Assembly: GCF_900289045.1 (NCBI RefSeq)
Contig: NZ_LT985188.1
Location: forward strand, 310,001-374,000
DNA length: 64,000 bases
Reading direction: 5' to 3'
Source of the DNA: Micropruina glycogenica
GTDB lineage: Bacteria > Actinomycetota > Actinomycetes > Propionibacteriales > Propionibacteriaceae
The notes below the pieces were generated by a model that did not search any database, was not told the origin of the DNA, and saw nothing but the letters and a program-made list of their open reading frames with translations. The first letter of the stretch is position 1, and each line of letters starts with the position of its first letter. The position numbers and the translations under genes are program-made. Shown piece after piece: positions 3,369-19,616 of this stretch.

Positions 3369-5072
<1,704 letters not shown>

Positions 5073-5077
5073 GCGCC

Positions 5078-6259
5078 GTGAGCGTGCTGATCGACAACAT
5101 CGGCTCGCTGGTCACCAACGACCCTGCGCACGGCGGCCTGCTCGGGGCGATCACCGACGCCGCCGTCGTGCTCGACGGCGACCGCATCGCCTGGGTGGGG
5201 CCCCGTGCCGAACTGGACGGCGCGGGCGCCGACGAGCGCCTCGACGCCGGTGGCAGGGCGGTCGTCCCGGGGTTCGTCGAAAGCCACAGTCACCTGGTGT
5301 TCGCCGGCGAGCGCGCGGAGGAGTTCGCGGCCCGCATGGCGGGGGAGTCGTACGCCGCGGGCGGCATCAGATCGACGCTGGCGAAGACGCGGGCCGCCAC
5401 CGACGACGAGCTGGGCGGCAACGTCGCCCGGCTCACCGGCGAGTACCTGGCCCAGGGCACGACCACCGTCGAGATCAAGTCGGGCTACGGCCAGAGCGTG
5501 CCCGACGAGCGGCGCAGCCTGCAGGTCGCCGGCTCGCATACACCGTTCGCCACGCTGTTGGCCGCGCACGTGACGCCGCCGGAGTTCGCCGGCCGCACCG
5601 ACGACTACGTGGCGATGGTGATCCACCAGATGATTCCCGCCTGCGCGCCGCTCGCGGGTTGGGTCGACGTGTTCTGCGAGGTCGGCGCCTTCGACGAGCA
5701 CCAGTCGCGGGCCGTGCTGGCCGCCGGAAAAGCCGCCGGACTAGGGGTGAAGGTGCACGGCAACCAGCTGCACCAGGGCCCCGGCGTGCAGCTCGCCGTC
5801 GAACTCGACGCCACCTCGGTCGACCACGTCTGCCACACCACCGACGCCGACATCGAGGCGCTGGCCACGTCGTCCACCGTGGCAACCCTGCTGCCCGCCG
5901 CCGACTTCAGCACCCGCAACCGCTACCCCGACGCCCGCCGGCTCTGGGACGCCGGCGTCACCGTGGCGCTGGGGGCCGACTGCAATCCGGGCACGTCCTA
6001 CACCACGTCGATGCCGTTCGTGATCGCGCTGGCCGTCCGAGACCTGCGGCTGAGCCCCGACGAAGCGCTCTGGGCCGCGACCGCCGGCGGAGCCAAGGCG
6101 CTGGGCCGCGACGACCTGGGCGTGCTGCGCCCCGGCGCGGTGGCCGACCTGGCTCTGTTGGACGCCCCGAGTCACCTGCACCTGGCCTACCGACCCGGCG
6201 TGCCGCTGGTCGTGGCCGTGGTCAAGAACGGCGCGCCGGCAAGGGGGCGATGGACGTGA
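5078..6259 (+). CDS. hutI: Imidazolonepropionase
   Basis: This amidohydrolase-superfamily enzyme opens the imidazolone ring of 4-imidazolone-5-propionate to give N-formimidoyl-L-glutamate. It is 393 aa from a GTG at 5078, five bases after the hutU stop. Metal-site elements include [12 protein letters not shown] (HxH), [21 protein letters not shown] and the late Asp in [15 protein letters not shown], a form typical of actinobacterial HutI. Its last codons overlap the start of hutG by 10 bp, so translation of the two is probably coupled. Confidence 0.95.
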
Positions 6260-7152
6260 TCGACCGCGAACCCGTGCGCTGGAAGGGCCGCGAGGACGGC
6301 CCCGGCGCCGAGCACGCCCGCTGGCACCACATCGTGACCGTGGCGCCAGGCGATGTCGCGATCGTCGGTTTCGCCAGCGACGAAGGCGTGCGGCGCAACC
6401 ACGGCCGGCTCGGCGCGGCCGAGGGGCCGACGGCGCTGCGCACGATGTTGGCCAACCTCGCCGACCCCGGACGTCCCGTCACCGATCTCGGCGACGTGGT
6501 GGTGGCCGACGGCAACCTCGAAGCGGGGCAGGCGCGGCTCGGTGCCGTGGTCGGCGGGCTACTCGACCGCGAGGCGCTGCCGCTCGTACTCGGCGGCGGC
6601 CATGCGGTCGCCTACGGCAGCGGCCTGGGCTGGACGGATCGAAGCGAGACCTGGGGCGTGCTCAACCTCGACGCCCACCTCGACCTGCGCCAGGCCCCGA
6701 TCGCCACGTCGGGCACGCCGTTCCGCCAGCTTGCCGATGATCTCGCCGCAGCCGGACGCCCCTTCCACTACTCGGTGATCGGCGTCAGCCGGCCCAGCAA
6801 CACTCGGGCCCTGTTCGACACCGCCGACCGGCTGGGCGTCGAGATCCTGTACGACGTCGACACCGACGCCACCAGCGCCGTCGCCGCGGCCGAGGCTCTG
6901 CTGAGCAGGGTCGACCGGGTGCACCTGACCCTCGATCTGGACGTGCTGCCGGCGGCCGTCGCGCCGGGGGTGAGTGCCCCTGCGGCCTTCGGAGTGGCCC
7001 CTGCGGTGATCCTCGCGGTGCTGCGCACCGTGGCGGCGTCGGGCCGGCTCGGCCTGTTCGAGGTGGCCGAGCTCAACCCGCTGTTCGACGTCGACGCCCG
7101 CACCGCCCGCATCGCCGCCCGGTTCGTCGACGAGGTAGTGCGGCACCTGTGA
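6250..7152 (+). CDS. hutG: Formimidoylglutamase, arginase family
   Basis: HutG of the arginase/agmatinase fold hydrolyses formimidoylglutamate to glutamate and formamide, completing the short form of the hut pathway without a tetrahydrofolate transferase. It is 300 aa from the ATG at 6250, inside the end of hutI; a GTG at 6255 is out of frame with it. Manganese-ligand motifs are visible: [19 protein letters not shown] (DxHxD) and [14 protein letters not shown]. It is the last gene of the operon; a palindrome in the short gap to the convergent exporter operon may end transcription. Confidence 0.9.
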
Positions 7153-7210: not shown

Positions 7211-8962
7211 TCAGCGGCTGGCCGTCGCCGTCGGTTGGGCGCTGGGTTGGGTCGAGCTGCCACCGCCGGACTGGGCCGCCGTGGTGGCCTGAGCCGTCGC
7301 GGTGGTCGTCGTACGCCGCTGGTTGTTGTTGGTGTTGGTCGGCAACTCCGCGGTGTTGTCGGCCAAAACCACCGTGTCACCGGCGCTGATGCCCTGCTTG
7401 ATCTCGACCCATCCGCCGCCCACGGCGCCGGTGGTCACCTGCACCGTCGAGGCCGTGGACGAACCCGAGGCCAGCACCTGCACCGTGGCCGTACCGGTAC
7501 CGGTGGGTGTGACGGCCGAGGCCGGCACCCGCACCGCGTTGGTGGCCGAGGCCACCGGAATGGTCACCGACGCCTTCGCGCCCGAGGCCAGCAACCCGTC
7601 CGCGTCGGACACCGTCACCACCGTGGTGTAGGTGGGCGTGTCACCCGCGGTGCCGCTGGTTTCGACGGCGCTGATGCTGGTGATCGTGCCGGCCAGGGCC
7701 TTGGTCGACCCCGCCGGGGTCACGGTCACTTTCTGGCCGTTCTCGACCAGCGTGCGGGTGGCCAGCGGCAACTCGAAGCTCACCTGGGCGTTACCGCTGC
7801 CCACGATGGTGATCGCCCCCGCGCTGGACGCCGAGCCCTTCGACAGCTCGACCGTGCCGACCGTGCCCGCGATGGGAGCCAGCAGTTCGGCGTTGTCGAG
7901 GTCGTCCTGCGCCGCCTGCAGCGCCTGCTCGGCCTGCAGCAGCTTGGCCTTGGCCGACGCCACCTGGGCGGCGCTGACGGTGGCCGTGGTGGTCGACGAA
8001 CTGCTCGACGAGCCCGACTTGGTGCTCGACGAACCCGACGTGGTGTTGGACGATCCCGTGCCGCTCTGGCCGCCGGTGCCGCCGTTGCCGGACGGCTGCA
8101 CCAACTGCTGCACCACCGTCTGCAGGTTCGCGGTGGCCAGCTTGACCTGCGCGCGAGCCTCACCGCACGCCTTGAGCTCGGCATCGGTGGGGTCGTTGGC
8201 CTCGATGATCGCGTCCTGGTCTTCGACCGTCGCGGACGGGCTGGCCGACGGCGATTCGCTCTCGGTGGGCGTCGGCTCGGCCGACGGGCTGGCCGTTTCG
8301 GTGGTCGTCTCGGACGGGCTCGGGCTGGCCGACGGGCTCTCGCTCGTCGACGGGGACGGGCTCGCCGTCGGTTCGGGAACGGCCCCGAACACGGGTTCAC
8401 AAGCGACCTCTTCGGCCGCGACCGCAGTGGTGAGCGCCGTGGTGGCGGCCAGCAGGGGAGCAGGGTTGATGGTCACCCCACCCTGCGCACCCGACCCGCT
8501 GCCGCCAGAGCCGCTCGAACCCGAGCCGCTCGAACCCGAGCCGCTCGAACTCGAACTCGAGCCCGACGAGCCCGTCCGGCTGCTGGTGCTGGTGGGGTTC
8601 TGTGCCGAGTACAGGTTCGCCTTGGCCTCGGCCACCGACGTCTCGGCGTCGAGCACCGCCAACTGCAGCGGACCCTTCTTGAGCACCGCCAGCACGTCAC
8701 CGGCCTCGACCTGATCGCCGACGGCGACCTTCACGCTGCTCACCGTACCGTCGACGGCGAAGCTCGCCTCTGAGGTGTTGGTGCGCGCGATGGTGCCCGA
8801 GGTGGTGTAGGTCTGGGTCACGTCGCCGGTGCCGGCGGTTGCGGTGACGTACCTCGTCTGACTGGACGGGTTCGCCACCGCGACCCCCCACCCCACGCCG
8901 CCGACCACGGCCAGCGCGGTGCCGGCGATGATCACAGCCCGAAGGCGTCCATTGATGGCCAT
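7211..8962 (-). CDS. Membrane fusion (adaptor) protein with long Ser/Pro-rich insert
   Basis: A 583-aa protein with an N-terminal membrane anchor (RAVIIAGTALAVVGGVGWGVAVA), a lipoyl/barrel-sandwich half (VSSVKVAVGDQVEAGDVLAVL), a helical hairpin (AKAKLLQAEQALQAAQDDL), the second half (LLAPIAGTVGTVELSKG) and a beta-barrel. This is the layout of HlyD/MacA-type adaptors. Two low-complexity segments are inserted, a Ser/Gly stretch near residue 135 and a Pro/Ser/Thr/Glu stretch near 205-250 rich in SPSPS and TPTES. It is the last gene of the exporter operon, 3 bp after the permease, and is the second adaptor in it. Substrate unknown. Confidence 0.85.
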   Translation of the reverse strand: MAINGRLRAVIIAGTALAVVGGVGWGVAVANPSSQTRYVTATAGTGDVTQTYTTSGTIARTNTSEASFAVDGTVSSVKVAVGDQVEAGDVLAVLKKGPLQLAVLDAETSVAEAKANLYSAQNPTSTSSRTGSSGSSSSSSGSGSSGSGSSGSGGSGSGAQGGVTINPAPLLAATTALTTAVAAEEVACEPVFGAVPEPTASPSPSTSESPSASPSPSETTTETASPSAEPTPTESESPSASPSATVEDQDAIIEANDPTDAELKACGEARAQVKLATANLQTVVQQLVQPSGNGGTGGQSGTGSSNTTSGSSSTKSGSSSSSSTTTATVSAAQVASAKAKLLQAEQALQAAQDDLDNAELLAPIAGTVGTVELSKGSASSAGAITIVGSGNAQVSFELPLATRTLVENGQKVTVTPAGSTKALAGTITSISAVETSGTAGDTPTYTTVVTVSDADGLLASGAKASVTIPVASATNAVRVPASAVTPTGTGTATVQVLASGSSTASTVQVTTGAVGGGWVEIKQGISAGDTVVLADNTAELPTNTNNNQRRTTTTATAQATTAAQSGGGSSTQPSAQPTATASR

Positions 8963-10196: not shown

Positions 10197-10891
<695 letters not shown>

Positions 10892-10895
<4 letters not shown>

Positions 10896-12948: not shown

Positions 12949-12978
12949 GGACGCCACCATAGGCGGGTGCCAGCCCCA

Positions 12979-13060
12979 GTCATCCCGGCGAACGCCGGGA
13001 TCTCGTCGTTGAGTGTGTCGCGATCGTGGTGGAAGATTCCGGCGTTCGCCGGAATGACGG
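12979..13060. repeat. Pair of REP-like palindromes left of the IS element
   Basis: CATCCCGGCGAACGCCGGGA (from about 12980) and, 35-40 bp on, GATTCCGGCGTTCGCCGGAA (from about 13035) are each palindromic and lie in opposite orientation to each other. They are followed at 13062 by GTCTCGACAAGCT, the other dispersed repeat type of this genome and the left half of the IS110 target. Similar palindromes occur near 38326, 53450, 58230, 58335 and 58410. Confidence 0.8.
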
Positions 13061-13129
13061 GGTCTCGACAAGCTGTGAGAGTTGGTGGTGGCTGGCCTGG
13101 GGCTAGCTGGCAGGGTGGTGGGACCGGTT

Positions 13130-13310
13130 GTTCGTGTGCGGGTCGTGACCCTTCGACAAGCTGACCGTCCGCAATTGTGCGGGGTGTCTTGGTCGAGATC
13201 TGTCCGGCTCGTGCACGGAGAACCGGCCGACCATCCCGGCCCACTCGTTGGCCTGATAGAAGCCCGTCCCACCGCTTTGGCGGGGTGACCGATCACAGTA
13301 ACGCCACGGG
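13130..13310 (+). ncRNA. Putative IS110 bridge RNA with readable target and donor guides
   Basis: The left-end non-coding region contains the guide pairs expected of a bridge RNA. Target loop: TCGACAAGCT at 13153-13162 is identical to the left target flank (13065-13074), and GGTCGAG at 13191-13197 is the reverse complement of the right target CTCGACC (14467-14473); a CCGC/GCGG hairpin (13169-13182) lies between them. Donor loop: ATAGAAGC at 13256-13263 repeats the element's right end (14457-14464), and TCACAG at 13293-13298 is the reverse complement of the left end CTGTGA (13073-13078), again with a GC-rich hairpin between. The order target loop then donor loop matches IS621. The RNA ends are estimates. 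Confidence 0.75.
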
Positions 13311-13389
13311 TGACTCTTTCCCCGGGATGGCCGCGCCGGTTCGACCGGCTCGATGCCCAACATCCCGAAAACAGGAGGCTCAGACACCG

Positions 13390-14460
13390 ATGGCCATCGT
13401 TGCAGATACCTACACCTATGTGGTGGGTGTGGACACCCACGCCGCCACTCATCATTACGCGATCGTGGAGACCCGTAGCGGCGGCCAGATCACCCACGGG
13501 AAGTTCCCCACCCATGCCGCGGGCTTGTTGCGGGCCGTGGATTGGATCAGCCGCCGCACCAGTGTTGACGACAACCCAGCTGTCGACCAGGTGCTGATCA
13601 GCATGGAAGGCACCGGCAGTTACGGCGCCCAGGCAGCCGAGCTGCTCGCCGCACGCGGTTACCGGGTCGTCGACGCACCCTCGCCGAAACGGGCTCGTGG
13701 CAGCGGCAAGAACGACCACATCGATGCCCTGGTCGCTGCCCGCGGCGCGTTACCCAAGGACAGCGAACGGCTCGCCGACCGACGCGCCGGCCATACCCGT
13801 GCCGCGCTGCAGATCCTGCTCACCGCCCGCGACAGCATGCGACGCGACCGGACCCGTTCCAAGAACCAGCTCACCGCGCTGCTACGCACCCACAACCTCG
13901 ACATCGATGCCCGCAAGGGAATCAACAAGGTCCACATCAGCCTCATTGCGGGCTGGCGCAAGCGGCCCACCGACACCACCCTGGCCCGGATCGCCCGCAC
14001 CGAAGCGCACCGCCTCGCCACCCGCATCCACACCCTGGACGCCGACCTCGACAGCAACGAGAAAGCCATCAACGCCCTCGTGCGTGAACTCGAACCAACC
14101 CTGCTCGACCTGCCCGGCCTCGGACCCATCAACGCCGCCATTGTGCTCGCCGTCTGGTCTCACCCCGGCCGCATCCATGACGAAGCCGGCTTCGCCAAGA
14201 TCGGCGGCGTCTGCCCCCTGGAGATCTCCTCGGGCAACTCCAAGGATCATCGCCTCAACCGCACCGGCGACCGACAACTCAACTCAGCCCTGAACTCCAT
14301 CGCGAACACCCGCATGCGACACGACGAAACCACCAAGGCCTACGTCAAGAAACGCAAACAGCAAGGCCAAACCAAACCCCGAATCCGACGCTGCCTCAAG
14401 CGCTACATCGCCCGCCAAATCTTCCGACACCTCAACACGACCACCCTTGACAAGACATAG
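13390..14460 (+). CDS. IS110-family transposase (bridge-RNA-guided DEDD recombinase)
   Basis: A 356-aa recombinase with an N-terminal RuvC-like DEDD domain (Asp15 in GVDTH, Glu73 in SMEGTGSYG, Asp109 and Asp112 in KNDHIDA) and a C-terminal Transposase_20 domain (LLDLPGLGPINAAIVLAVW, then EISSGNSKDHRLNRTGDRQL with the catalytic Ser near 280-284). The ATG at 13390 follows AGGAGG. All catalytic motifs are present, so the gene looks intact. It acts on DNA together with the RNA encoded just upstream, recombining the element circle into its target without target duplication. Confidence 0.95.
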   Translation: MAIVADTYTYVVGVDTHAATHHYAIVETRSGGQITHGKFPTHAAGLLRAVDWISRRTSVDDNPAVDQVLISMEGTGSYGAQAAELLAARGYRVVDAPSPKRARGSGKNDHIDALVAARGALPKDSERLADRRAGHTRAALQILLTARDSMRRDRTRSKNQLTALLRTHNLDIDARKGINKVHISLIAGWRKRPTDTTLARIARTEAHRLATRIHTLDADLDSNEKAINALVRELEPTLLDLPGLGPINAAIVLAVWSHPGRIHDEAGFAKIGGVCPLEISSGNSKDHRLNRTGDRQLNSALNSIANTRMRHDETTKAYVKKRKQQGQTKPRIRRCLKRYIARQIFRHLNTTTLDKT

Positions 14461-14537
14461 AAGCGTCTCGACCACCCAAGCTCGACCGCGGAACCGCAAC
14501 GGCCCGCCGCCCGCCCTGAGATACCATGAGGGCGATT

Positions 14538-14661
14538 CGTGCTCCGGGGTCGGTGTAAGTCCGAACCGGCGGTGACAGTCCGCGACCCGTCGCAGCAATG
14601 CGACGGTTGATCCGGTGAAACTCCGGAACCGACGGTGAAAGTCCGGATGGGAGGCAGCACG
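14538..14661 (+). ncRNA. FMN riboswitch (RFN element)
   Basis: The aptamer is recognisable by its conserved blocks in order: GGGGTCGGTGTAAGTCCG, ACCGGCGGTGACAGTCCGCG, a variable hairpin (CCCGTCGCAGCAATGCGACGG), GATCCGGTGAAACTCCGG and ACCGACGGTGAAAGTCCGG, then ATGGGAGGCAGCACG. The closing P1 helix pairs CGTGCT (14538-14543) with AGCACG (14656-14661). It precedes the riboflavin-type transporter genes, so high FMN should shut off uptake. A possible -10 (TACCAT, 14522-14527) lies just before it, about 55 bp after the IS110 right end, with no obvious -35. Confidence 0.95.
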
Positions 14662-14691
14662 GGCGGCGTCCGCTTCTGCGTGCGCCGTCGA

Positions 14692-14741
14692 TCGGCGCAT
14701 TCTCCTGCGCCGACCCCCGGTCGCGAAGCGAACCGGAGGAG
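14692..14741 (+). promoter_or_regulatory. Riboswitch expression platform with RBS-masking hairpin
   Basis: Downstream of the aptamer is a perfect 8-bp hairpin, TCGGCGCA/TGCGCCGA (14692-14713, loop TTCTCC), not followed by a T run. A second hairpin pairs CCGGTCGC (14717-14724) with GCGAACCGG (14728-14736, one bulged A). Its 3' arm ends in the first bases of the ribosome site GGAGGAG (14735-14741). This fits translational control by sequestration of the start site, the usual mode in high-GC actinobacteria, rather than attenuation. Confidence 0.6.
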
Positions 14742-14744
14742 ACG

Positions 14745-15509
14745 ATGACCAGCATCAGCCCGCAGACCAGGCGCCTCGTCGCGCCCCTGCTGCTCGGGCT
14801 CGCCCTGCTGGCGCTCTGGACGGCCCTGGCCGGCGTCGCCTCACCCGTACTGCTGCCCGGCCCCGCGAAGGTGCTGGCGCGGTTCTGGAGCGACCTGATC
14901 ACCGGAGCCCTGTGGCCCTACCTCGCCGTCACCCTTGCCGAAGCCCTGGGCGGCTGCCTGATCGGCGCCGCCGTCGCGCTGCCGCTATCCGTGGCGATTC
15001 ACCGCTCGGCGTGGTTCTCGGACGCCGTCCAACCGTTTCTCGGCGCCACCCAGGCCATTCCTGCGGTGGCGCTGGCGCCCCTGCTCGTGCTGTGGATCGG
15101 CTACGGCCTGCTGCCCGTGGTCTTGCTCTGCGCACTCATCGTGTTCTTTCCGATTCTGGTGGCCGCCGTGGTGGGCCTGCGCATGGTGCCCCGCGAGGTG
15201 GTGGACGCCGCCAGGCTGGACGGCGCCGGCAGCCTCGGCCTGCTGCATCACGTCGAGGCCCCGCTGGCGCTGCCCTCGCTGCTGGGCGGGTTCAAGAACG
15301 GCTTCGCGCTCAGCGTCACCGGCGCCGTGGTGGGCGAAATGGTGATGGGCGGCAGCGGCCTGGGCACCGTGCTCACCGTGCAACGCGACGCCGTCGACAC
15401 CACCGGCATGTTCGCCACCATCGCCTGGCTGTGCGTGATCGCCGCCACCGCCTATTCGTTGATCACCTGGTGGGAGCGCCGCTCCGCCATCGTCGAAGCC
15501 CTGACCTGA
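14745..15509 (+). CDS. ribX: Riboflavin-type ABC transporter permease
   Basis: A 254-aa inner-membrane permease of the SsuC/TauC (BPD_transp_1) family with about six helices and the cytoplasmic EAA loop (DAARLDGAGSLGLLHHVEAP). Membership in this family alone does not give the substrate, but the FMN riboswitch directly upstream and the SsuA-like lipoprotein directly downstream fit the RibXY riboflavin or flavin-precursor uptake systems. No ATPase gene is present between or next to the two, so an ATPase encoded elsewhere must energise it. The ATG at 14745 follows GGAGGAG. Confidence 0.75.
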   Translation: MTSISPQTRRLVAPLLLGLALLALWTALAGVASPVLLPGPAKVLARFWSDLITGALWPYLAVTLAEALGGCLIGAAVALPLSVAIHRSAWFSDAVQPFLGATQAIPAVALAPLLVLWIGYGLLPVVLLCALIVFFPILVAAVVGLRMVPREVVDAARLDGAGSLGLLHHVEAPLALPSLLGGFKNGFALSVTGAVVGEMVMGGSGLGTVLTVQRDAVDTTGMFATIAWLCVIAATAYSLITWWERRSAIVEALT

Positions 15510-15533
15510 AACAAAGCCTCGAAGGAGTCGTCC

Positions 15534-16544
15534 ATGCACCGCCGAACCCTGCTGACCGCCGCTCTGGCGCTCGCCGCCGCGGGCTGCGCCGGCCCGTCCA
15601 CCACCAGCGGGTCGCCTGCGGCCTCGGGCAGCGCGCCCACCAGCCGGGCCGTCATCGGGCTCAGCTACATACCCAACGTGCAGTTCGCGCCGTTCTATGT
15701 GGGTGTCAACGACAAGCTGTTCGACCCGGTGCCGGCCCAGGTGAGCCTGCGTCATCACGGCGCCACCGAGGGCCTGTTCAACGCGCTCACCTCAGGTGCC
15801 GAGCACTTTCTGGTGGCGGCCGGCAGCGAGGCCATGCAGGCGCGCGCCGAGGGTGTCGACGTGATCGCCGTGGGCGCCTACTACAAGTCGTTTCCGGTGC
15901 AGGTGCTGGCACTCGACTCTTCACCCGTTCAGGCCCTGGCCGACCTGAAGGGCCGGCGGTTGGGTGTGCCCGGCCGCTACGGCGAATCGTGGCTGGCGGC
16001 CCAGGTGGCGCTCAACACCGCCGGGCTGACCGAGGCCGACGTGACGATCGTCGAGGTCGGCTACACCCAGGTCGCCGCGCTGACCACCAAGAAGGTGGAC
16101 GCCGTGGTCGGCTTCACCACCAACGAACTGGTGCAGCTGCAACTCGCGGGCGCCAACCCACGCGCACTGCCGGTGGCCGCCGGCACCGTGCCCCTGGTCA
16201 GCACCTGCCTGCTCACCACCACCGCGTACGCCAAGAAGAACCCCGAGGTCGTCCGCCAGGTGGTGCAGGCGGTGGCGAGCGCGATCGAGGCCACCGCTGC
16301 CGACCAGCCGAAGGCGATCGACATCGCCGCCACCCAGATTCCGGGGTGGACGGCCGCGGCCCGGCCCAACGCCGAAGCGGTGCTGCAGGCGTCCATCGAC
16401 CTGATGGACGTGCACGACGGCACCTTCGGCCCGGCCCTGGACGCGACGCAGTGGGCTCAGATGGCTGAGTTTCTGCAATCGGGAAAGCTGATCAAGACCC
16501 CGGTCACGGCCACGGACGCCTTCACCAACACCTTCGCGATGTGA
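15534..16544 (+). CDS. ribY: Riboflavin-type ABC transporter substrate-binding lipoprotein
   Basis: A 336-aa lipoprotein with signal peptide and lipobox LAAAGC (lipidated Cys near residue 19) and an NMT1/SsuA-type periplasmic-binding fold (GLSYIPNVQFAPFYVGVNDK, then FNALTSGAEHFLVAAGSEAM and DLKGRRLGVPGRYGESW). Proteins of this fold bind sulfonates, pyrimidine thiamin precursors or flavins. The upstream FMN riboswitch makes riboflavin the most likely ligand. It is 24 bp after the permease in the same transcript, with AAGGAG before its ATG. Confidence 0.75.
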   Translation: MHRRTLLTAALALAAAGCAGPSTTSGSPAASGSAPTSRAVIGLSYIPNVQFAPFYVGVNDKLFDPVPAQVSLRHHGATEGLFNALTSGAEHFLVAAGSEAMQARAEGVDVIAVGAYYKSFPVQVLALDSSPVQALADLKGRRLGVPGRYGESWLAAQVALNTAGLTEADVTIVEVGYTQVAALTTKKVDAVVGFTTNELVQLQLAGANPRALPVAAGTVPLVSTCLLTTTAYAKKNPEVVRQVVQAVASAIEATAADQPKAIDIAATQIPGWTAAARPNAEAVLQASIDLMDVHDGTFGPALDATQWAQMAEFLQSGKLIKTPVTATDAFTNTFAM

Positions 16545-16686: not shown

Positions 16687-18957
16687 GTGCCGGGACGCGT
16701 GTTTTCGTTTGTGAGAAGCGGCGGCAACCTGGGCAGGGCTGATCCTGCGCGGGGTGCGACCGCGTCCGGTCTGCGGCTGTGGCTGGCGCGCGCCCTGGGC
16801 ATGACCTGCCTGGCCATTCTGGTGCCTGCGCTGTTCATCTCACTCAACCAGTTGCCCTACCTGCACTGGATCTGGCTGGTGTTGGTCGGCGGCAGCATCG
16901 TCGGTTTCAGCCTGCTGATGCCGGTGTACGCGTGGCAACTGGGTGATGTTCGGTGGCTGTCGGGGGCGTACGCGCTGGCTGTTCTGGTGGGTCTGCTGAC
17001 CTGGCCGCTGGCCTGGCTCATCGACACCCCGGCGCAAGCAGCGCCGTGGCTGTGGATGTGTCTCGGGGTGGCCAGCGTGTGCGCTGCGATGGCCACCACC
17101 GTGGGGGTGGGGTTCGGCTACGCCGCCGTTTCGTCGCTGGCGTTCGGTTTCGTGCGGCTCACGCCGGCCGGCGGCGCCCGCCCACCGCTGGGGGCGCTGC
17201 AGGACGTGCTCACCCTGATGGTGCTGCCCACCGCCCTGTTGCTACTGATTCAGTTCTTCGCCGGGGCGGTCGAAGAGCTGGACGCCACCACCGCCGAATC
17301 TCAGCGCGTCGAGGCCGACCGGGCCATCGACAAGGCGCTCAGCCAGCGCCGCACCGTGCTCGACGGCATCATTCACGACCGGGTGATGACCAGCCTGGTG
17401 GCGGCGGTGCAGACCGACCAGCCGCGCGGCGAGGTGGCCGACCTGGCCGGGGCGGCGCTCGACTCGCTGGCCGAAGCGGGAGCCCCGACCGACGTGGGGC
17501 AGCCGCTGTCGCCCCATCAACTGGCCCGGCTGATCGAGGGCATGGTCGAGGCCGTGTGTCCGCAGGCCACGGTCAATGTGGACGCCGACAGCGACGCGGT
17601 GGCCGTCAGCGCGTCGGTGGCCAGTACGCTCGGGCAGGCAGCGCGCGAAGCCGTGATGAACGTCACCCGGCACGCCGAGGCCGACCAGGTGACGATCGAC
17701 ATCTCGGCTCGGCTGGTCGGTGACGACCAGCGGGTGCGGGTCGACGTTCGTGACGACGGCCGCGGCTTCGACCCCGCCGAGGTGCCCGAGGGTCGGTTCG
17801 GCATTCGGGTGTCGATGAGAGAGCGCATGGCGGGCGTCGGCGGCACGGTCGACATCACCTCGCGCCCCGGTGACGGCACGCTGGTCAGCCTGCGCTGGAG
17901 CGGCCGCGACCAGCAGGCGGGCGAAACGATCTCGCGGCGCCGGGCGTCCGAGGCGTTACGTTCGGTGCTGCGCGTCGAGGTCTTTCTGTTTCTGGTCTGG
18001 CTGGTGGTCGGCGTGCAGGTGGTGGTCGGGTTGATCTCGGCGATCTCGATGCCCAACCAGGGCCCGGTGCTGGTGGCCCAGGGGTTGGCCATCGCAGCCA
18101 CCGCGATCGCACTGCACAAGGCCGGCGATCGTCCGATGACCACGCTGGAGGCCGGCCTGGTGGTGGTGTGCCTGGTGGCGATCGCGCATCTGGTGCACGC
18201 CACGTTGCCCATCGGCGAGATGCCCACCAACTCCACCTGGCACAGCACCGTGATCATGGCGTTGCTGATCACGGTGCTGGTGCGCGGCCAGCGACTGGCC
18301 GCCTGGCTGGGGCTGGCGGTCTTCGTGGCGCAGGCCGTCTACTGGGCACGCACGCACGAACTCGGGCCGGCAGCGGTGCTGCAAGAGATCTTCGGGCCCG
18401 TGCTCTGGCTGGGGCTGGCCACCCTGGTGCTGCGCGGCCTGCGCTCGATCGGCGAGCAACTGGTGCGGGTGCGCAAGCGCTCGCGCGAGAACACCCAGGC
18501 CATGGCCGAGAGCTTCTCGAACCTGGTGCTGCGTGACGTGTGGCTCACCCAGTTGCGCGAGCAGATCGGCCCGCTGCTGCAGAACCTGGCCGACCCGACC
18601 CACCAACTCACCCAGGCCGAGCGCGACGACTGCCGCATTCTCGAGGGCCGGCTGCGTGACGCGTTGCGCGCCGGCAACCTCGTCTCGCAAGGGGTCTCGG
18701 ACGCCATTCAGGCCGCCCGCGGACGCGGCGTCGAGGTGGTGCTGGTCGACAACCGCGGGTCGCGGCTGCCCGAGGCCGTCCGGTTGGCCACGCTGCGTCG
18801 ACTGGAGCAACTCGTGCGCACCTCCACCAGCGGACGTATCGTGGCGCGCACCGCACCCGAGGGCTATTCCGAGGCAGTCACCATTCTCACCGTCGACGCC
18901 GAACGCAATCTGACTACGATTGACGAGACCGGCACGGTGACAGTGAGGAAGACATGA
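16687..18957 (+). CDS. NarL-type sensor kinase with two membrane domains
   Basis: A 756-aa protein from a GTG whose ribosome site is weak, so the start is uncertain. Residues about 30-195 form a first multi-helix membrane domain. A HisKA_3-type dimerisation helix follows with His230 in LDGIIHDRVMTSL, then an HATPase domain with Asn325 (EAVMNVTRHAEA) and DDGRGFD (356-362). Unusually, this is followed by a second membrane domain of about five helices (430-585) and a cytosolic tail (590-756) with a long helix and a small alpha/beta-like region. The tail could be a degenerate second kinase module. Its stop overlaps the response regulator start by 4 bp. Signal unknown. Confidence 0.85.
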   Translation: MPGRVFSFVRSGGNLGRADPARGATASGLRLWLARALGMTCLAILVPALFISLNQLPYLHWIWLVLVGGSIVGFSLLMPVYAWQLGDVRWLSGAYALAVLVGLLTWPLAWLIDTPAQAAPWLWMCLGVASVCAAMATTVGVGFGYAAVSSLAFGFVRLTPAGGARPPLGALQDVLTLMVLPTALLLLIQFFAGAVEELDATTAESQRVEADRAIDKALSQRRTVLDGIIHDRVMTSLVAAVQTDQPRGEVADLAGAALDSLAEAGAPTDVGQPLSPHQLARLIEGMVEAVCPQATVNVDADSDAVAVSASVASTLGQAAREAVMNVTRHAEADQVTIDISARLVGDDQRVRVDVRDDGRGFDPAEVPEGRFGIRVSMRERMAGVGGTVDITSRPGDGTLVSLRWSGRDQQAGETISRRRASEALRSVLRVEVFLFLVWLVVGVQVVVGLISAISMPNQGPVLVAQGLAIAATAIALHKAGDRPMTTLEAGLVVVCLVAIAHLVHATLPIGEMPTNSTWHSTVIMALLITVLVRGQRLAAWLGLAVFVAQAVYWARTHELGPAAVLQEIFGPVLWLGLATLVLRGLRSIGEQLVRVRKRSRENTQAMAESFSNLVLRDVWLTQLREQIGPLLQNLADPTHQLTQAERDDCRILEGRLRDALRAGNLVSQGVSDAIQAARGRGVEVVLVDNRGSRLPEAVRLATLRRLEQLVRTSTSGRIVARTAPEGYSEAVTILTVDAERNLTTIDETGTVTVRKT

Positions 18958-19616
18958 GCGATCCAGCCCCGATCCGTGCCGCGATCATCGACGATCACGA
19001 GGCGATTCGGCTGGGCGTGGGTGCGGCCCTGCAGCAGCACACCGCGGGCCAGGTGAAGGTGGTCAGTTCGCACGAGACCGTCGATGAGTTTCTGGCCGAC
19101 GACGTCGACGCCGACGTGGTGATGCTCGATCTATCACTGGGCGACGATTCCGACCCCAAAGAGAACGTCGAGAAGCTCGCCGAGGGCGGCTACCGCATTC
19201 TGGTCTACTCGATCGCCGACGACATCAGGCTGGTGCGGCGTGCGCTGGCCGGTGGGGCCGACGGGGTGTGCCGCAAGGCCGAGCCGATCGCGCAGACCAT
19301 CGAGGCGCTCGAGGCGGTGGCGAACGGCCAGATGGTGCTGAGCCAAGAGATTCTGGCGGCCATCGAGTCCGACACCACCTACGTGGCGGCCAGCCTCGGC
19401 CCGCGCGAACGGCAGGTGTTGTCGCTGTATGTGGCAGGGCTCGAAATTCCCGAAGTGGCCCAGCAGTTGTACATCACCGAGAACAGCGTCAAGGAGTACC
19501 TCAAGCGCATTCGGGTGAAGTACACCCAGGTCGACCGGCCGGCCAACAACAAGCTCGACCTGCTGCGCCGGGCCATCGAGGACGGCATCATTCCGCCGGT
19601 GCAGCGACGCAACTGA
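18954..19616 (+). CDS. NarL/LuxR-type response regulator
   Basis: A 220-aa regulator with an N-terminal receiver domain (acidic pair Asp13-Asp14 in IIDDHEAIRLG, phospho-acceptor Asp59 in VVMLDLSL, Lys in CRKAEP) and a C-terminal LuxR-type helix-turn-helix (LGPRERQVLSLYVAGLEIPE, then VAQQLYITENSVKEYLKRIR). The ATGA overlap with the kinase makes it the cognate partner. Targets are unknown; no autoregulatory site was recognised upstream of the kinase. Confidence 0.92.
   Translation: MSDPAPIRAAIIDDHEAIRLGVGAALQQHTAGQVKVVSSHETVDEFLADDVDADVVMLDLSLGDDSDPKENVEKLAEGGYRILVYSIADDIRLVRRALAGGADGVCRKAEPIAQTIEALEAVANGQMVLSQEILAAIESDTTYVAASLGPRERQVLSLYVAGLEIPEVAQQLYITENSVKEYLKRIRVKYTQVDRPANNKLDLLRRAIEDGIIPPVQRRN

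Follow-up and report, generated by a model that had tools for sequence, protein, structure and literature searches.

A 64,000-nucleotide stretch of the Micropruina glycogenica genome (NCBI RefSeq assembly GCF_900289045.1, contig NZ_LT985188.1, positions 310,001 to 374,000; hereafter the window) carries a flavin mononucleotide (FMN) riboswitch followed by two genes, ribX and ribY, which encode an ATP-binding cassette (ABC) permease and a substrate-binding lipoprotein. Judging from its sequence, the locus is one more member of the known RibXY family of riboflavin importers. The reading that we favour, with slightly better than even confidence, is that RibX has lost a dedicated ATPase, RibZ, and would now dock on MsiK, a multitask ATPase of sugar importers. 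The sequences show directly that a riboswitch precedes the gene pair, that the relatives examined have no linked ATPase and that a permease of the SsuC type has a coupling loop of the CUT1 type. The genome consists of one contig of 3.84 Mb (C1 below), in which the window spans C1:310001-374000.

A role of RibXY in riboflavin import was first proposed and later put to the test, and both FMN-riboswitch RibXY loci of Actinobacteria and two-gene ribXY loci without an ATPase are already on record (PMC4418817). For flavin binding by RibY, and for an ATPase gene (ribZ) close to ribXY in a small number of Chloroflexi, the same article refers to work published elsewhere. In those parts of the open-licence PubMed Central literature that were available, no statement on the power source of two-gene RibXY importers was found.

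The riboswitch of the window is matched by the Rfam model RF00050 over its full length, at 99.9 bits (E 5.9e-22; gathering score 66.2); this is the sole Rfam match above gathering score within the window, and a second FMN riboswitch was not found in the genome. A preliminary description of this DNA had recognized the aptamer, placing its start at 14538, 3 nt off the Rfam boundary. Its calls of an SsuC-like permease and an SsuA-like lipoprotein agree with the Pfam matches of the two open reading frames (ORFs), BPD_transp_1 for RibX (E 1.6e-27) and NMT1 for RibY (E 1.4e-33), and the NCBIfam matches (SaoP, SsuC, TauC and others for RibX, SsuA_fam for RibY) all stay under cut-off. The structure model of RibX (predicted local distance difference test score, pLDDT, 83.5) has OpuA, CmpB and NrtB as its top folds in PDB. 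In RibY, Cys18 is invariant across 15 aligned sequences, and the closest solved relatives are proteins that bind hydroxymethylpyrimidine (HMP) and thiamin. No second NMT1 protein was found in the genome.

Strong relatives of RibY (E < 1e-40) are present in 15 of 37 related genomes, M. glycogenica included, and Rfam detects the FMN riboswitch in 12 of the 14 others; the riboswitch of locus L118 is seen with a model built in this analysis, and locus L113 runs into the end of its contig. From 491 loci obtained by scanning species genomes, the best 80, one of them from Chloroflexota (L223), were taken as the set of related loci. The riboswitch is present in 78 of these and stands directly before ribX in 76; L176 and L220 start at contig ends and show none, and L220 contains no permease, hence the 79 RibX sequences considered below. 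In a tree built with a quick method, RibX groups with riboswitch-linked homologues and not with the ATPase-linked NMT1-type paralogues (a 52-row clade with a support of 97 in the Shimodaira-Hasegawa-like approximate likelihood ratio test, SH-aLRT). Two loci of the set are arranged in their own way. In L225 (Georgenia thermotolerans) the riboswitch lies at 7346-7477, 5.4 kb downstream of ribXY and probably before another gene, and the leader of ribXY itself lies beyond the contig start. In L228 (Streptomyces chumphonensis, 4520-6942) ribX (5230-4520) lies on the strand opposite to that of ribY (6001-6942), and the riboswitch (5480-5608) is ahead of ribY only.

No ATPase gene adjoins ribXY, as the preliminary description had stated. 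The nearest one on one side is a MacB/LolD-type gene on the opposite strand (10197-10895), and a further ABC ATPase is encoded around window position 28 kb. When the 80 loci, 67 of which extend 1 kb or more beyond the pair in each direction, were searched by tblastn with 13 ABC ATPases, matches were obtained in eight; UvrA accounts for two of them (L224 and L239), and in the remaining six loci transporter-type ATPases lie at a distance of 2.3 to 4.7 kb, with the three closest encoded on the opposite strand. A missing adjacent ATPase is the rule among the RibXY relatives examined. Among NMT1-type relatives without a riboswitch match (L133-L161, short loci), an ATPase match was obtained in 26 of 29. 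L133, from the same taxonomic class as the window, is itself a close RibXY relative, with a DGA loop, no ATPase match and no FMN riboswitch in the 1.5 kb upstream of ribY. Since no ATPase is adjacent, a borrowed one is the natural reading; to this extent the earlier statement that the pump must borrow its ATPase holds, whereas the SsuB/TauB-like lender that it had in mind is unsupported by the genome (see below).

Type I permeases touch their ATPase through the EAA loop (PMC7658222), and a highly conserved aspartate has been named among the coupling-helix contacts of CUT1 systems (PMC8603345). The loop of RibX reads VDAARLDGAGSLGLLHHVEAP; its core, DAARLDGA, fits the CUT1 form EAAxxDGA, and in the structure model a short helix (residues 150-158) is followed by D159-G160-A161. 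D-G occupies this position in 77 of 79 RibX proteins and in none of 26 relatives of the NMT1 type whose loops could be read and of which 25 have an ATPase match (L133, L145 with its gapped loop and L158 with no permease match are omitted from this count, and L137, whose truncated locus has no ATPase, is kept). The same distinction is seen in Escherichia coli, where D-G is found in 5/5 CUT1 permeases read and 0/10 others (MalG, YdcU and one half of ThiP not being part of this control), and in M. glycogenica itself: of the 30 permeases examined out of 33, 11 match a CUT1 protein of E. coli best once the loop is masked, and D-G is present in every one of these, while among the other 19 it occurs in RibX only.

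A twelve-position profile of the loop assigns 79/79 RibX to CUT1, the scores for the window's RibX being 18.3 for CUT1, 9.5 for Pot/Cys and -2.3 for the SsuB type; under leave-one-out testing it recovers 16/16 CUT1, 45/47 SsuB-type and 8/11 Pot/Cys-type members. Eleven of the 16 CUT1 members are permeases of the M. glycogenica genome first chosen by their loop and their lack of an ATPase, a circularity that was checked by masking the loop, upon which the best E. coli match of all 11 is still a CUT1 protein. RibX behaves differently under the same masking. It matches SsuC (E 4e-15) and TauC (1e-12) in a small custom database, MalF reaching only 7.5, and its best E. coli matches in the comparison of own-genome permeases are TauC and then SsuC. 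With a CUT1-like loop and an SsuC-like remainder, RibX is, by sequence, CUT1-like in the loop alone and otherwise a relative of SsuC.

The genome has 83 matches to ABC_tran and 33 to BPD_transp_1. Forty-six of its ATPase domains were placed in a tree, and none of these falls into the SsuB/TauB/RibZ group; an orphan SsuB/TauB-like ATPase, the kind of lender for which the preliminary description had proposed to search, was accordingly discarded, and the CUT1-type loop of RibX points to MsiK instead. The best match to an E. coli SsuB probe (44%) is an ATPase at C1:3688256, which exceeds the cut-off of the NCBIfam UgpC subfamily (459.5 bits vs 432) and groups with MalK and UgpC with a support of 100. 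We take this ATPase to be MsiK. No BPD_transp_1 match of the genome lies near it. No multi-pass neighbour was seen on its own strand, as is likewise the case in L095, L099 and L104, which is a hint only, gene calling around the ATPases of this genome being unreliable at its G+C content (22 contexts, three of them without any called gene). Six sugar-type permease pairs have no ATPase match within 14 kb. A different ATPase, at C1:3211457, is the one nearest to the SsuB/TauB/RibZ group (support 84) and has permeases beside it. In the 50 other RibXY genomes searched, taken from those of the 80 loci, an MsiK-type ATPase at an identity of at least 54% was found in 46, in two of them in pieces.

Chloroflexota, where RibXY occurs both with and without an ATPase, provided a further comparison. 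Of 301 genomes, 135 gave a match, and from these sixty loci, two from one genome, were chosen by hand, largely following the score but passing over some; 51 of the sixty have the FMN riboswitch. An adjacent ATPase is present in 16 of the 51, SsuB/TauB-like in all except for a fragment in L339, and 16/16 of these loci have neither an acidic-G nor an S-G loop. The 35 ATPase-less loci show D-G or E-G in 22 cases, S-G in 11 and neither in two; 10 of the 11 S-G loops score closer to CUT1. In a RibX tree inferred by a quick method with the loop columns dropped (including 27 of the 79 RibX plus that of the window), the 52-row clade mentioned above unites actinobacterial and Chloroflexota RibX that have acidic-G loops and no ATPase, S-G loops form a second clade together with L333 and L334 (13 rows, SH-aLRT 91), and the RibX found beside RibZ a third (SH-aLRT 84). 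The direction of change, namely loss of RibZ, is deduced from the outgroup. In L338, the permease gene, the FMN riboswitch and the binding-protein gene follow one another in that order (402-2409), and the loop, RVFGATGW, fits neither group.

Taken together, these comparisons are consistent with a chain of events in which RibX would once have run on a dedicated SsuB-like ATPase, RibZ, would have lost it and would now dock on MsiK. In the importer as it may work at present, low FMN would allow RibXY to be made, RibY would capture riboflavin outside the cell and hand it to a RibX dimer, which would translocate it, and MsiK would supply ATP hydrolysis in common with the sugar importers. The wider version of this proposal, that RibX changed partners, its coupling helix converging on the CUT1 signature after the loss of RibZ, and that MsiK powers a vitamin importer in part of Chloroflexota and in Actinobacteria including Propionibacteriaceae, we regard as evenly balanced between right and wrong.

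Several observations weigh against docking on MsiK. L333 and L338 are ATPase-less without an acidic-G or S-G loop, the profile divides the acidic-G loops of Chloroflexota (n=24) into 12 CUT1-like and 12 Pot/Cys-like ones, and no clear UgpC-type ATPase was found beside a D-G RibX in the loci examined. The ATPase fragment of L339, counted among the 16, matches RibZ (2e-20) about as well as UgpC (1e-18); it was not accepted as a UgpC-type ATPase beside RibXY, being an ambiguous 5' fragment at a contig end next to a permease with a loop of the RibXZ type. Removal of the Asp position from the profile leaves 70/79 RibX with CUT1 and moves 9/79 to Pot/Cys, and in the Pot/Cys control 6/11 are then recovered, 5/11 going to CUT1. 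According to the tree, the association between loop and ATPase reflects about two evolutionary changes, not 51 independent cases, for which reason a Fisher p of 2e-11 (loop versus ATPase in Chloroflexota) serves as a description only. The presence of MsiK is necessary, not discriminating: an MsiK-type ATPase at E <= 1e-70 occurs in 55/60 Chloroflexota genomes with or without RibZ, too commonly for its co-occurrence with RibXY to be retained as evidence. Four of the 50 RibXY genomes, all titled MAG (metagenome-assembled genome), are without MsiK at the 54% threshold, and genome G644, with an ATPase-less RibXY (L324), is without it at E <= 1e-70. Finally, PMC7658222 holds that ATPase sharing does not occur outside the CUT1 sugar importers.

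Part of these points would suit a different lender. It is possible, although we consider it rather unlikely, that RibX borrows the ATPase of another importer, either of the PotA/CysA type, to which half of the acidic-G loops of Chloroflexota are similar, or the one at C1:3211 kb, which adjoins the SsuB/TauB/RibZ group in the tree and has its own adjacent permeases. The permeases of both kinds, however, carry L-G, M-G or similar dipeptides and not D-G, and the actinobacterial RibX loops are CUT1-like throughout the set of 79. A dedicated RibZ encoded elsewhere in the genome would fit the fact that just 46 domains were compared while the genome has 83 ATPase matches; we consider it improbable, as no compared domain belongs to the SsuB/TauB/RibZ group and the compared loci include the genome's ten top matches to SsuB, the first of which is MsiK.

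Other explanations dispense with a borrowed ATPase or with riboflavin. RibXY could act without ATP hydrolysis, as a facilitator assisted by the binding protein, with flavin trapped by flavokinase. This would agree with the finding that the ribXY pair of Chloroflexus aurantiacus alone let riboflavin-auxotrophic E. coli grow when riboflavin was low (PMC4418817), but E. coli K-12 possesses malK and ugpC, which could serve the pair, and a strongly conserved coupling loop would be pointless without an ATPase; we give this alternative little credence, if marginally more than a hidden RibZ. That RibXY carries another ligand, a thiamin precursor or a different aromatic compound, is very improbable in our view: the nearest solved relatives of RibY do bind thiamin or a pyrimidine precursor, but the FMN riboswitch accompanies nearly all of the related loci, a homologous RibXY has been tested as a riboflavin importer (PMC4418817), and the genus appears to need flavin from outside.

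This need was assessed by one pathway gene, lumazine synthase (PF00885), which was not found in the M. glycogenica genome or in five other genomes of the genus with a model positive in 14/14 controls, and which is missing from 11/15 genomes with a strong RibY. Two of the six genomes of the genus (that of M. glycogenica and G003) are at least 90% complete and four are under 90%. The bacterium seems to be unable to make vitamin B2. Proteins of the PnuC/RibM family (PF04973) are absent in 6/6 genomes of the genus, the search being limited to this family and not extended to RibU and other transporters; in the genomes with a strong RibY the family exceeds the cut-off in 0/15, with two weak matches, and it is present in 5/6 family members without a strong RibY. 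With neither lumazine synthase nor a PnuC/RibM-family protein found, RibXY would probably be the main flavin supply here, and it must then work. A relic or inactive pump was considered and, with lumazine synthase not found in so many of these genomes, judged unlikely.

The features of the locus are listed in Table 1. A consensus scan found no sigma-70 promoter; transcription from the -10-like hexamer would begin at about the first aptamer base. FMN control is probably translational, it being plausible that the 5' strand of the aptamer and the ribosome-binding site (RBS) compete for one linker segment, which overlaps the 5' arm of the predicted RBS hairpin. The duplex between the first 40 aptamer nucleotides and the linker has a z score (from mononucleotide shuffles) of -3.4 here and of -1.75 to -2.9 in five Micropruina relatives; over 65 leaders the mean is only -0.67, with 10/65 below -2. 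The anti-sequestor duplex stands out in Micropruina and not across the family. The RBS-masking hairpin that the preliminary description offered as a control mechanism is indeed predicted, yet its mean pair probability (0.79) is indistinguishable from that of shuffled linkers (0.76; 49% of 300 shuffles as high), and we set it aside as proof of mechanism since composition explains the pairing equally well.

Table 1. Features of the ribXY locus in window coordinates, with the proposed partner gene msiK in genome coordinates (MFE, minimum free energy).
Feature	Position	Strand	Basis or remark
-10-like hexamer TACCAT	14522..14527	+	by-eye alignment with TAnnnT hexamers before the riboswitch in relatives
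FMN riboswitch aptamer	14535..14664	+	Rfam RF00050, 99.9 bits
Aptamer 5' strand CCGGGGUCGG, candidate anti-sequestor	14544..14553	+	complementary to 14710-14720
Linker segment CCGACCCCCGG	14710..14720	+	common to both alternative pairings
Predicted hairpin over the RBS	14714..14739	+	MFE structure
RBS GGAGGAG	14735-14741	+	
ribX, SsuC-family ABC permease, 254 aa	14745..15509	+	Pfam PF00528 (BPD_transp_1)
RibX coupling (EAA) loop, residues 153-178, VDAARLDGAGSLGLLHHVEAPLALPS	15201..15278	+	CUT1-type
RibX Asp159 codon	15219-15221	+	
ribY, NMT1/SsuA-type substrate-binding lipoprotein, 336 aa	15534..16544	+	Pfam PF09084
msiK	C1:3688205-3689302		unlinked to ribXY

Directly 5' of the riboswitch, where the relative L108 has about 30 bp, the window contains an insertion of about 1.54 kb (12961-14532) with a gene for an IS110-family RNA-guided transposase (ORF 13177-14460). 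The insertion also contains a palindromic repeat (12972-13065), a 32-nt inverted repeat that is 88% complementary with 30 nt between its arms, and the segment 12979-13005 recurs without a mismatch at another place in the relative locus L107. The TAnnnT hexamer at 14522-14527 is as in relatives, but the DNA upstream of it, including the -35 region, is not common to them. The importer may owe its expression to read-through from the insertion sequence (IS) or to a new promoter. Genes for a histidine kinase and for a response regulator of the LuxR type lie downstream of ribXY (16687-19616), and their best NCBIfam matches, MacS and NarL, are both under cut-off; DNA homologous to this segment is also found 3' of ribXY in L105, L106, L107 and L108.

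The evidence from the loop names one gene, msiK, and one residue, Asp159 of RibX. If the proposal is true, a short coupling loop alone would predict the ATPase used by an orphan permease, and vitamin B2 import, driven by the motor of sugar pumps, would link the supply of flavin with the uptake of sugars in bacteria that appear to be flavin auxotrophs. Outside the CUT1 sugar importers, a borrowed ATPase has been reported for a vitamin B6 importer (PMC8427247) and a shared one for siderophores and haem, where FhuC serves several permeases (PMC10147376).

The closest known counterpart is RibXY of C. aurantiacus (Caur_0816-0817), which likewise combines an FMN riboswitch with a COG0600-type permease and a COG0715-type binding protein, and which, as a cloned gene pair lacking an ATPase, was able to complement riboflavin auxotrophy in E. 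coli (PMC4418817). The ATPase-less loci of Chloroflexota examined here mostly have acidic-G or S-G loops, whereas the loop of the window has the full CUT1 form. Chloroflexota loci of the RibXYZ type share the FMN riboswitch and homologous RibX and RibY but differ in having an adjacent ATPase and another coupling loop. In Streptomyces, a ribXY pair described as highly active (PMC11039241) belongs to the roseoflavin cluster; that of Streptomyces davaonensis, unlike the pair of the window, sits in this antibiotic gene cluster. The CUT1 importers that depend on MsiK or MsmX resemble the proposed system in lacking a linked ATPase, in drawing energy from an unlinked multitask ATPase (PMC7658222) and in having the same D-G coupling loop, but they belong to another permease family and carry sugars, and RibX has no overall similarity to MalF. 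The vitamin B6 importer P5PAB of Actinobacillus is similar in that it comprises two genes without an ATPase and works with the ATPase of another system (PMC8427247); its lender, AfuC, is the ATPase of a close paralogue, while the lender proposed for RibX belongs to a different permease family.

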